DNA of 64,000 nucleotides. Source: Taibaiella soli (GTDB lineage Bacteria; Bacteroidota; Bacteroidia; Chitinophagales; Chitinophagaceae). The stretch lies in NCBI RefSeq assembly GCF_003236175.1, contig NZ_QKTW01000017.1:136304-200303 (forward strand), written 5' to 3'. Shown here piece by piece: positions 28,583 through 48,088 of this stretch. Position numbers and translations under genes: made by a program. The notes under the pieces were generated by a model, which did no database searches, was not told the DNA's origin, and saw only the letters and a program-made list of their open reading frames with translations. Positions within the stretch are counted from its first letter, which is position 1. Every line of letters starts with the position of its first letter.

Positions 28583-28666
28583 TGCCCAGAACAGGAATCG
28601 AACCTGCACTACCTTGCGATAACCAGATTTTGAGTCTAGCGCGTCTACCAATTCCGCCATCTGGGC
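28583..28666 (-). tRNA. tRNA-Leu (anticodon CAA)
   Basis: On the minus strand an 84-nt cloverleaf starts GCCCAGA and ends TCTGGGC plus discriminator A. The D-loop region GGCGGAATTGGTAGACGC, the anticodon loop CTCAAAA (CAA, reading UUG), a long class II variable arm and the T-loop GGTTCGATTCC are all present. CCA is not encoded directly. Its 3' end faces the AT-rich accessory part, the usual side for island integration. Confidence 0.93.
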
Positions 28667-42713: not shown

Positions 42714-43205
42714 TTAAAAGCGAACACCCAGCTGACGAAACATCTGTATCGGATTGCAAAATTGAATCGAAAAATGATCGCAGGGTTCCGGAATAGCGAT
42801 TCTTGATTTCATTCGGGGATTGCTGATTTCGTGCGTTACAATAGTATTGCCAAGCTCTGATGCGGCCGCAATAAGCCATGCATCAGCTTCATCAGCATCC
42901 AAAAATTCATTAATAGCTCCGGGAGAATAATGAAATGCCCGTTCAGCAGCCCATTGCGCGATTCGACTATAAGCGACTATGTGTCTGGAACTATCCTCAA
43001 AAAAATCAGCAGGTAATTCGGCATCAGCCCAATCTTTGAGATGGTCGTTGCCTTTTCTGATTTCCGCCCCTACCTTGTCAAGACTTCTTATAATGCCCTG
43101 CCCTGCTAATTCTTTAACCTTATTCCAAAACGAGGGAACGACGTCAAACGGATAATGTGCCCGATGTGCTGTTATAAAAAAGTTTGCATCTAACAAATAA
43201 GCCAT
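42714..43205 (-). CDS. DUF4411 PIN-like toxin
   Basis: 163 residues. PIN-like acidic residues: Asp in MAYLLDANFFI, Glu in KVGAEIRKGND, Asp residues in DADEADAWLIAAA, and a final VTHEI strand. This is the DUF4411 family, thought to be ribonuclease toxins. Its start is 3 bp downstream of the ImmA/IrrE-Xre gene, a known partner of DUF4411, so the pair is a toxin-antitoxin-type module. All the acidic positions look intact. Confidence 0.8.
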   Translation of the reverse strand: MAYLLDANFFITAHRAHYPFDVVPSFWNKVKELAGQGIIRSLDKVGAEIRKGNDHLKDWADAELPADFFEDSSRHIVAYSRIAQWAAERAFHYSPGAINEFLDADEADAWLIAAASELGNTIVTHEISNPRMKSRIAIPEPCDHFSIQFCNPIQMFRQLGVRF

Positions 43206-43208
43206 TCT

Positions 43209-44342
43209 CTATTTCAACTTAGCGTTTATAAAATGATGATAGGTATCTCCACTAAGCCCCGTCAGCTTATAAGCTTCACGATGAGAAAGTTTACCCTGCT
43301 GAACAGCCTGATCAATAAATGCAGCGAAACGAAGACTAACACGATTTATTTGATTATTATAGTAATCTCCGCCACCGTTTGATTCTTCTTTTTTCTGCTG
43401 AGCCTGAAATTGCCATTGGCTATACCAGCTAAAAAATTGCCCTTTTGTAATAAACCCCAGATCCAGTGCACGCCTTGCTATTACAATACGACTTACCTTA
43501 AAATAACGGGCGACATAGCCAAGATCAGAACGTTGCTGCCATACATTTTTGAATATAGTTCCCGGCACTAAAAATTCTGCGGCAACCTTATCACAAAGCT
43601 GCTCGACCGGATCATTCGCCGGCATAAACTGATTAGTATCAAAACCTGCGCTTTTACCTAGCCAAACATGCGCCAATTCGTGAATCAACGTAAATAATTT
43701 AGCTGATTCTGCATCGCTGTTGTTGATGAATAAAAATGGACAATACTCGTTGACTAATATAAATCCCCGGCATTCAGCGGCATCAATTTTTCGCTTTGTA
43801 TTATTCCCAACAATCCCGTTCACAACGACAATAATTCCAATTTCCTCAATTTGGTTGACGAGAAAACGGAAAGCGCTGGGCGCATCCTTAACATCAGAAG
43901 CCCAGTCCAATGCTAACCCCAGCGTATTGCGAATATCCTCAACAATATCTTCAATTCCATTCTTTGTAGAAAATCTTCCAATAAAAGACAACGGTTGATG
44001 TCCGTCCTCCTGCAAATACTCGCTCAGCCACTGCTGACGTTGCTGTAAGCTTCTTACCGTATCCGCAATATTTAAACTTATATCACTGTTTACAATTTTA
44101 CTACCATGTCGAAAATAAGGGAATGGCAATGTTTCTTTAGGTGGCTCAGGCAAAAATAAATAGCCGAACGGCAAATGAACACGCTTTGAAAAAACCTCCA
44201 GCTGCTTGACGGTTGGTTCTGCTTCTTGCTTGAGCCATTCAGGCAATCTGGGCAACGCCTTTACTAAATCATCCACCGTTTTCCCAGACCTCTTTAAAGC
44301 CCAGAAAAGCATTTCAGGATTTATTTTTACCGTGGTACTCAT
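43209..44342 (-). CDS. ImmA/IrrE metalloprotease-HTH protein (antitoxin partner)
   Basis: About 377 residues from the ATG at 44342; an earlier ATG at 44369 adds nine residues. The N-terminus contains an Xre-like helix-turn-helix region (ALKRSGKTVDDLVKALPRL, VKQLEVFSKRVHLPFGYLF). The middle has the zinc-protease motif LIHELAHVW (HExxH) with a later Glu in CDKVAAEFLVP, as in ImmA/IrrE. The combination is typical of the antitoxin or regulator partner of DUF4411 toxins. It is the first gene of the two-gene unit. Confidence 0.85.
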   Translation of the reverse strand: MSTTVKINPEMLFWALKRSGKTVDDLVKALPRLPEWLKQEAEPTVKQLEVFSKRVHLPFGYLFLPEPPKETLPFPYFRHGSKIVNSDISLNIADTVRSLQQRQQWLSEYLQEDGHQPLSFIGRFSTKNGIEDIVEDIRNTLGLALDWASDVKDAPSAFRFLVNQIEEIGIIVVVNGIVGNNTKRKIDAAECRGFILVNEYCPFLFINNSDAESAKLFTLIHELAHVWLGKSAGFDTNQFMPANDPVEQLCDKVAAEFLVPGTIFKNVWQQRSDLGYVARYFKVSRIVIARRALDLGFITKGQFFSWYSQWQFQAQQKKEESNGGGDYYNNQINRVSLRFAAFIDQAVQQGKLSHREAYKLTGLSGDTYHHFINAKLK

Positions 44343-44400
44343 ATTTTCACGAAAATAATTAATTAGCACATTCAGAAATCAGAGACCCAAAAAATCCTCA

Positions 44401-45511: not shown

Positions 45512-45811
45512 ATGAAACCAATAATCAGCTTGCTAGTCTTGGCACTCATGACCGGGTCTGCATCAGTTAATGCGCAGAGTACCACTAAAAAAGCGGAAAA
45601 AGAAGTGTCAAAAGATGCTACAAAAGCCGCAGATAAAACTGCGGAAGTTGCGTCTAAGGGCAAATCCTCCGTTGTCGATAAAGTTTACAAAGACAAAGAA
45701 GGGCCAAACGGTGAAACGATCTACATCGACGCCCACTCAAAATACTATTGGGTCGACAAGAAAGGACATAAGGAATACATCGCCAAGGATAAGCTCAAGA
45801 ATAAGAAATAA
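45512..45811 (+). CDS. Small lysine-rich exported protein
   Basis: 99 residues with a signal peptide (1-21, ending VNAQS). The mature protein is extremely rich in Lys, Ala and Glu (KKAEKEVSKDATKAADKTAE), followed by GPNGETIYIDAHSKYYWVDKKGHK, a short beta-type motif seen in small Bacteroidota surface proteins. A perfect terminator follows 8 bp after the stop. Function unknown; an envelope or stress role is possible. Confidence 0.75.
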   Translation: MKPIISLLVLALMTGSASVNAQSTTKKAEKEVSKDATKAADKTAEVASKGKSSVVDKVYKDKEGPNGETIYIDAHSKYYWVDKKGHKEYIAKDKLKNKK

Positions 45812-45818
45812 TACCAGC

Positions 45819-45854
45819 AATCCGGCAAGACGCTCTTCTTGCCGGATTTTTTTT
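45819..45854 (+). terminator. Terminator of the lysine-rich protein gene
   Basis: AATCCGGCAAGA (45819-45830) and TCTTGCCGGATT (45837-45848) pair perfectly and are followed by a T-run. Confidence 0.9.
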
Positions 45855-45894
45855 GCCCTAAAAGATTGTGACACAGAGCAATCTGCATTTCTTG

Positions 45895-46181
45895 TCGTCG
45901 ACCTATTGATTTACCAGGCAGACCTACTTTAAAACGAGGTGGACCTTGTTCAGGTACAAGGTCCACCTACTTTTTTACTAGGTCCACTTACTTCACCTAC
46001 CAGCTCGACCTAATTCAGAACGAGGTCTACCTGCTGCTGCAAAAGGTCGACCTCGTTTACCTACAAGCCCGACCTAGTTTCAAACAAGGTCCACCTACTT
46101 TTTTACTAGGTCCACTTACTTCACCTACAAGGTCGACCTACTTCCGAACGAGGTCTACTTACCTCCATACAAGGTCAACCT
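45895..46181. repeat. 14-unit array of near-palindromic decamers, 21-bp period
   Basis: Decamers close to AGGTCGACCT begin at 45895, 45916, 45937, 45959, 45980, 46002, 46023, 46044, 46066, 46087, 46108, 46130, 46151 and 46172; every step is 21 or 22 bp. The central bases vary (GG, CC, CG, CT, CA), while A-G-G-T and A-C-C/T-T are mostly kept. A higher-order repeat of 128 bp also exists (45956-46000 equals 46084-46128 over 45 bp). Some neighbours can form hairpins, for example 45937-45949 with 45956-45968, a perfect 13-bp stem. It occupies most of the 440-bp gap between the lysine-rich protein gene and the aldo/keto reductase gene. Confidence 0.9.
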
Positions 46182-47275: not shown

Positions 47276-48088
47276 GTGACGAATCCAAGCGAAATCATTC
47301 CGGGCCTTATTTTTTATGCCTATCTCTCTGCACAACGGAAAGACAAAGTAAGCTTCCTCGAGCACAACACCCTGGTGTTGGTGGCCTCGGGGCAGTTTAC
47401 TTTAGAGACATCCGGCCAGAAAGTAACCATGCGAAAAGGCGAAATGCTGCTGATCGGCAAAAATCAACTCGCTACAATTACAAAGACGCCATTACCCGGC
47501 GAAGATTACGAGACTATTGTGATCTCACTACAGGAGGAAATGCTGCGCCAGATTGTGCTGGAAGAACAATTGACGATGCAGGAGAAATATAGTGGTCCGC
47601 GTAATGTGCTCATACCGCCAACGGATTTTTTACGTGGTTATTTTCAGTCAGTGCTACCCTATGTCCGCAATCCGGAAGCGACCTTAACTGATGCGATGGG
47701 CATGCTCAAAGTAAAGGAAGGCGTAAAACTAATACTCCATGCAATGCCCGGACTTCGTTCTTTGTTGTTCGATTTTTCGGAGCCGCATAAGATCGATCTG
47801 GAAAAATTTATGCTGGGTAATTTTCATTTCAATATTCCCCTTGAAAAATTTGCACAGCTGACTGGTAGAAGTCTCGCGGGATTTAAGCGTGATTTCAAGA
47901 AGGTATTTGACGCGGCACCTAAGCAATGGCTAATGGAACGACGCTTAACGGAGGCACGTTATCTGATTGAGAAAAGTCGCAAGCCATCTGATATTTATCT
48001 GGATCTTGGCTTTGAAAGTTTGTCACATTTCTCTCGTTCCTTTAGCAGAAAATACGGTAAGGCACCTTCGGAATGGAAAGCTGCGTAA
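47276..48088 (+). CDS. AraC-family transcriptional regulator
   Basis: 270 residues, GTG start at 47276. The N-terminal region is a cupin-like sensor (LVLVASGQFTLETSGQKVTMRKGEMLLIG), and the C-terminal 100 residues carry two HTH motifs (LEKFAQLTGRSLAGFKRDFK and YLDLGFESLSHFSRSFSRKYG) as in AraC/XylS proteins. It probably controls the reductase gene next to it, as this pairing is very common. No other targets can be deduced. Confidence 0.87.
   Translation: MTNPSEIIPGLIFYAYLSAQRKDKVSFLEHNTLVLVASGQFTLETSGQKVTMRKGEMLLIGKNQLATITKTPLPGEDYETIVISLQEEMLRQIVLEEQLTMQEKYSGPRNVLIPPTDFLRGYFQSVLPYVRNPEATLTDAMGMLKVKEGVKLILHAMPGLRSLLFDFSEPHKIDLEKFMLGNFHFNIPLEKFAQLTGRSLAGFKRDFKKVFDAAPKQWLMERRLTEARYLIEKSRKPSDIYLDLGFESLSHFSRSFSRKYGKAPSEWKAA

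Follow-up and report, generated by a model that had tools for sequence, protein, structure and literature searches.

What is a series of fourteen short palindromes, repeated at an almost constant spacing, doing in an intergenic region of the Taibaiella soli chromosome? The first-pass annotation of this locus offered a cooperative protein-binding array, a nucleoid- or partition-like site, or an RNA with serial hairpins. The explanation preferred here, to which we give about an even chance, is that the array is an orphan of a dispersed intergenic family of short DNA palindromes placed two helical turns apart, and that it represents a putative multivalent binding or bridging site, which would be read in trans by a class-specific factor.

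Structure and surroundings of the array

The window, i.e. the whole stretch of 64,000 nucleotides that was analysed, corresponds to C10:136304-200303 in a 5.38-Mb assembly (G000). Its array consists of 14 decamers resembling AGGTNNACCT, starting at positions 45895, 45916, 45937, 45959, 45980, 46002, 46023, 46044, 46066, 46087, 46108, 46130, 46151 and 46172, with steps of 21, 21, 22, 21, 22, 21, 21, 22, 21, 21, 22, 21 and 21 bp; starts and steps agree exactly with those first annotated. The column counts over the 14 units (A13 G13 G12 T12 / N N / A14 C14 C11 T14) show the decamer to be palindromic apart from its 2-bp centre, which varies. The palindrome-chain score of the array is 18.6, compared with 3.0 in 20 base shuffles (shuffle maximum 6.1). 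Since the 13 steps span 277 bp, or 21.31 bp per step, neighbouring units are nearly co-facial at 10.5 bp per turn and the two ends of the array lie ~137 degrees apart; the original statement that all units share one face of the DNA thus holds for neighbours, and is approximate for the array as a whole.

The 45-bp exact repeat reported at the outset was recovered (Table 1). Its offset equals 2 x 64 bp, the basic block being a three-unit, 64-bp higher-order repeat, and TRF calls the array at periods of 21, 43 and 64. Three-unit repeats of 64 bp, found in this and in sister arrays, bear out the proposed growth by duplication. A coding repeat was considered and rejected, given stops in two of the three frames and the mixture of 21- and 22-bp steps; across arrays, periods of 22, 43, 64 and 65 bp are incompatible with a reading-frame constraint.

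The ORF upstream of the array gave no match in a Pfam search. The order of ORF, terminator and array is that seen at most arrays linked to the DUFx gene family described below, to which this ORF is unrelated. No partner gene was found near the window array, which is therefore classed as an orphan: its sequence is of class I, and the ORF whose terminator it follows is unrelated. Its annotated position upstream of an aldo/keto reductase/AraC gene pair is right; a functional link to the pair was not found. On the other side, a DUF4411 (PIN-like) gene adjoins one for an IrrE/M78-peptidase protein with distant similarity to RmrA, and the two look like a toxin-antitoxin or defence pair. The array region has no match to an Rfam covariance model.

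Related arrays in the same genome

Nine or more arrays with this class of sequence are present in the genome, at C10:182k (the window array), C10:34k, C11, C13, C14, C16, C17, C18 and C29. Many others are unrelated in sequence, e.g. CCTGTACAGG at C13:125k and a GTATAC-type array at C21. The sister arrays of the window array are spaced strictly by 21 bp, strictly by 22 bp, or by a mixture: spacing is strictly 22 bp in the C11 and C16 arrays and mostly so at C10:34k, the C29 array alternates between 21 and 22 bp with a 43-bp block, and other class members are built of 64-65-bp blocks. In 788 kb scanned without preselection for arrays (contig C13 plus the larger part of C16, with one array already known in each), about seven or eight 21/22-bp arrays were convincing; coding repeats and simple runs of heptamers were set aside. 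Extrapolated from these 788 kb, the genome total would be ~45-60 arrays.

Assignment by 6-mer content gives several classes, three of which are listed in Table 1; class I conserves AGGTNNACCT. All three include arrays directly 3' of DUFx genes as well as members that stand alone, and each corresponds to one DUFx subclade. The arrays were also considered as markers of defence islands; several in this genome lie by AbiL-, Shedu- or AbiJ-like genes, most do not, and the idea was dropped.

A neutral minisatellite grown by slippage would account for the 64-bp block duplications, and arrays with periods of 14 and 7 bp are present in the genome too. This reading is very improbable and already disfavoured by three observations, namely a period of 21-22 bp that is fixed over unrelated sequences, the retention of palindromic symmetry, and the association of the arrays with two gene families.

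Table 1. Location and composition of the features discussed (window coordinates, unless another locus is named)
Feature	Position or members	Strand	Remarks
Window array	45895..46181	.	14 palindromic AGGTNNACCT decamers; period 21/22 bp; 64-bp higher-order repeat; class-I orphan
45-bp exact repeat, first copy	45956..46000	+	
45-bp exact repeat, second copy	46084..46128	+	Offset 128 bp
Intrinsic terminator	45819..45856	+	12-bp perfect stem AATCCGGCAAGA/TCTTGCCGGATT, then T-run; between upstream ORF and array
99-aa ORF	45512..45811	+	Signal-peptide-like N terminus; its terminator precedes the array; not DUFx
Aldo/keto reductase gene	46253/46280-47251		Downstream of array
AraC gene	47276-48088		Downstream of array
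DUF4411 and IrrE/M78-peptidase pair	42714-44369	-	~1.5 kb before array
tRNA gene	28583-28666	-	Sole Rfam match in window
Array class I	DUFx-side: C10.34, C13, C18		Orphans: window array, C29, C16.168; also three HTH-side arrays
Array class II	DUFx-side: C4, C9		Orphan: C16.199 (C16:199k)
Array class III	DUFx-side: C1a, C1b		Orphans: C16.328 (C16:328k), C16.374 (C16:374k)
XRE/HTH_3 paralogues with defence-like cargo	L169:3013-5533; L171:3110-4324; L172:757-2142; L168:3879-5886		Cargo: AbiLi+AbiLii, Shedu (SduA), AbiJ_NTD4 (PDC-S32), KAP NTPase (weak PDC-S20 match)
22-bp-period repeat, Parabacteroides distasonis	L183:5542-5613		TTAGGCAACACAACCGTATGTA, 3.3 copies; 3' of HTH relative

Gene families adjoining the arrays

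Each of the arrays at C13, C18 and C10:34k follows directly on the 3' side of a gene for an unannotated protein of ~160 aa, here termed DUFx; the three genes are paralogues. Relatives of DUFx occur in 5 of 197 genomes of the family, and a profile search of 395 Bacteroidota genomes finds them in 22. The set examined comprises 38 DUFx loci, 35 found by protein alone and three seeds found via arrays (L173, L178 and L181). When periods of 13-40 bp were compared over the 500 bp 3' of each gene, 20 loci had their best value at 21 bp and seven at 22 bp, together 27/38 compared with 4/37 of the 5' control flanks; without the array-found seeds, the count is 24/35. Blocks of 42-43 bp are found at L216, L221 and L223, the array at L225 lies further off, and a clear array is missing at about a quarter of the loci.

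Array sequence varies among these loci, from GACTNNAGTC (L229) and CGACTC.GAGTCG (L219) to a GAACCGGTTC-like form (L236) and a GCTATC-type one (L174). In the comparison of period with sequence proposed by the first-pass annotation, it is the 21-22 bp period that is kept across Bacteroidota, and the sequence that changes. The exact sequence of the window array is absent from 148 other genomes of the family. Its architecture recurs in many relatives, and the outcome that had been named as speaking against a functional reading, a plain minisatellite lacking in all relatives, does not apply.

Each of the seven DUFx genes of the T. soli genome has an array, in most cases placed behind an intrinsic terminator. 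Over the full set of loci, a terminator-like hairpin lies no more than 150 nt from the DUFx stop in 22/38 cases (3/38 in a control window), and many arrays are thus situated beyond the end of the gene's transcript. A relative with three DUFx genes (G175) has three 21/22-bp arrays in the 400 kb sampled, one of them an orphan with the motif of one of that genome's own DUFx arrays; in 400 kb sampled from a DUFx-less relative, no clear 21/22-bp array was seen. Across genomes, the higher the identity of two DUFx proteins, the more alike their arrays tend to be (Spearman 0.35, Mantel p 0.001), a correlation that partly reflects plain shared descent.

A second, unrelated family (DUFy; ~245 aa with two internal repeats) was first met beside an array on C13. 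Arrays with a period of 21 bp are present at 5/5 DUFy loci, three of which are in T. soli (one being the starting point) and two in other families. In 4/5 cases the array lies 5' of the gene, and several of these arrays are weakly palindromic. One DUFy member is basic (+8).

Whether DUFx itself contacts the DNA is doubtful. It has no consistent family match in Pfam, NCBIfam or PHROGs and no recognisable DNA-binding domain. The AlphaFold2 model (pLDDT 88, pTM 0.66) is all helical, with one helix of 54 residues, and a Foldseek search of the PDB with this model gave nothing with E < 0.001. The mean net charge is -2.6 (+1.6 for the last 25 residues), and an acidic protein lends no support to direct DNA binding.

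HTH proteins are candidate binders, and the arrays might serve XRE/HTH_3 paralogues as operators in the control of neighbouring defence genes (AbiL, Shedu, AbiJ-like). In T. soli, class-I arrays have five close HTH paralogues in their vicinity, and a further three paralogues, which have diverged, are found near other 22-bp arrays. As a universal partner, the HTH protein fails outside this genome: its relatives in other genera are almost without arrays within 1.5 kb, whereas DUFx relatives have them. Orphan arrays with no HTH gene beside them, and HTH-array distances of up to 3 kb, also make the operator reading quite improbable. The XRE/HTH_3 loci adjoin defence-like cargo (Table 1), and are possible defence cassettes sharing a regulator.

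DNA or RNA

Whenever a repeat of fixed period contains one dyad, it must contain another half a period away. The symmetry of a consensus can therefore not separate a decamer operator from a hairpin; covariation at the level of single units can. An earlier, stronger-looking covariation test was biased, as its centres had been picked by palindromicity. Decamer-anchored parsing was applied to 18 AGGT-type arrays, a number of tests that leaves the weaker p values marginal. Three of the 18 show clear compensatory change across the spacer, namely L156 (p 0.002), L019 (p 0.0005) and L017 (p 0.015), and changes are compensated around the decamer in L007 (p 0.024) and L154. The window array has no spacer covariation (p 0.38), and the remaining arrays of the 18 gave no significant signal.

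These data bear on the possibility that the arrays are non-coding RNAs with serial 7-bp hairpins (ACCTA...TAGGT, with a 5-6-nt loop and a 2-nt linker) bound by the partner protein. The perfect 7-bp stems of L156, with double compensatory changes (ACCTAGC-TAAAT-GCTAGGT vs ACCTAAT-CTATGT-ATTAGGT), are what such an RNA would produce, as are those of L019 and, more weakly, L017. Most arrays behave otherwise. No preference for G.U (G.T) over A.C mismatches is seen in gene orientation (271 vs 255 expected; 13 arrays above, 11 below), the arrays commonly follow terminators, and the one Rfam match in the window is a tRNA. Serial hairpins, as suggested by the first-pass annotation, are not generally supported and were rejected as a general rule; overall, the RNA reading is improbable. 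Judging from sequence, it is more likely that the arrays act as DNA, with a role as RNA possible for some of them.

A putative mode of action

In the preferred explanation, the arrays would work as double-stranded DNA. A class-specific dimeric factor would bind each palindrome, and bound neighbours would stack along one face of the DNA. The filled array would then be a multivalent platform able to join distant arrays of the same class, thereby bridging parts of the chromosome, or to act as a roadblock or insulator between genes. The factor may be the product of the partner gene, or a DNA-binding protein acting with that product. The arrays would grow via unequal crossing-over of blocks of two to three units, the specificity of the factor and the sequence of the array drifting together.

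Support comes from the dispersal of class-I arrays in one genome, the periodicity of DUFx 3' flanks relative to 5' flanks, the match between array classes (each with orphans) and DUFx subclades, the arrays at every DUFy locus, the terminators near DUFx stops, the lack of a G.U bias, and the genome sampling. A number of points argue against it: the acidic nature of DUFx, with neither a DNA-binding domain nor a PDB match for its model; the HTH_3 genes beside class-I arrays, whose products could be the binders; the hairpin-like spacer changes in L156, L019 and L017; the DUFx loci that lack a clear array; and the share of common descent in the Mantel correlation. In addition, strictly 22-bp arrays require ~11 bp per turn for their units to be co-facial. 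Of the initial proposals, a protein-binding or nucleoid-like site fits best, given a period that stays at 21-22 bp over unrelated sequences, palindromic units, a location after terminators and dispersed class members; as a whole, the initial interpretation is partly supported.

The arrays and their partner genes point to an undescribed DNA element. More tentatively, and somewhat short of an even chance, they may constitute a new genetic system, composed of a small helical protein (DUFx or DUFy), its own sequence-specific array of palindromes phased by two turns, and orphans. One genome would then hold several mutually independent protein-array "channels", which would either serve to organise or insulate the chromosome or spread as selfish modules. 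A period that is conserved while the sequence is free to change marks a structural constraint on the DNA, and a gene family usually adjoined by an array provides a handle on the reader of that array. If the cognate proteins do bind, a single genome would have several orthogonal systems of sequence-specific chromosome organisation, a situation that to our knowledge is not known in Bacteroidota; the pairs of protein subclade and array class would then be testable specificity pairs, perhaps usable as tools. If the arrays move instead, they would make up a new type of mobile repeat.

Comparison with known systems

Mobility is the basis of another alternative, in which the arrays are REP/RAYT-like or MITE-like repeats, copied to intergenic sites by the partner product or by an unseen enzyme, with the window array as a non-autonomous copy. 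REP/BIME elements are dispersed intergenic palindromes, some beside a RAYT (TnpA_REP) gene and others orphan; REPs are single or paired palindromes of 20-40 bp, and RAYTs are Y1 HUH transposases (PMC2817692, PMC3116915, PMC8266576). In the present arrays, too, palindromes are dispersed in intergenic DNA, a partner gene lies next to some of them, and partner and palindrome sequences diverge together. Autonomous-looking pairs of gene and array coexist with orphans of the same class in one genome, and the arrays often lie right behind terminators, like REPs and BrickBuilt of P. gingivalis (PMC4596501). Unlike REPs, however, they form tandem arrays of 10-20 units with a fixed 21-22-bp period, a constancy amid sequence turnover that mobility leaves unexplained. 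DUFx is an unannotated helical protein with no match to a Y1 (HUH) or other transposase; neither the PDB nor, consistently, Pfam, NCBIfam or PHROGs provided a fold or family for it. Neither terminal inverted repeats nor target-site duplications were noticed at the arrays on unsystematic inspection. A mobile origin is rated as rather unlikely.

BrickBuilt is a minisatellite-MITE of Porphyromonas gingivalis with a 23-nt unit, a leader and tail with inverted ends, and ~20 copies per genome (PMC4596501). Both are dispersed, intergenic, short tandem repeats of Bacteroidota; BrickBuilt is one sequence in one species, with no partner protein family reported (PMC4596501).

Plasmid iterons and centromere repeats share the ~22-bp period; iterons bind protein cooperatively, and one iteron-like set matches AGGTNNACCT. 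Acinetobacter and Psychrobacter contigs (L068, L074, L084, L098, L111, L122 and others) carry four exact 22-bp direct repeats of AGGTTTACCT, which are probably plasmid iterons with a convergent motif. Whereas these loci consist of four near-identical direct repeats, the arrays described here are chromosomal, numerous in each genome and built of diverged palindromes. DUFx is not a Rep protein, the neighbours of the arrays are ordinary genes and not a replication origin or rep, and the window array has no plasmid match.

The matches listed for the decamer pattern across GTDB are a mixture of plasmid iterons, arrays from termite guts and coding repeats, so the decamer recurs and homology is not implied. 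The termite-gut Spirochaetaceae MAG Pc512_bin84 has many contigs with 21-bp arrays of AGGTATACCTTTTGTCGTAAA (L054, L061, L064, L072, L083 and other JAITHR contigs), and a related form, AGGTGTACCTTTTGAGTTAAA, is found in a gut Planctomycetaceae MAG; these may be another instance of the phenomenon, or else an in-frame heptapeptide repeat. No description of arrays such as those of T. soli was found in the open-access literature. On the features tested, they are a member of none of REP/RAYT, BrickBuilt or iterons, each of which they resemble in single respects.
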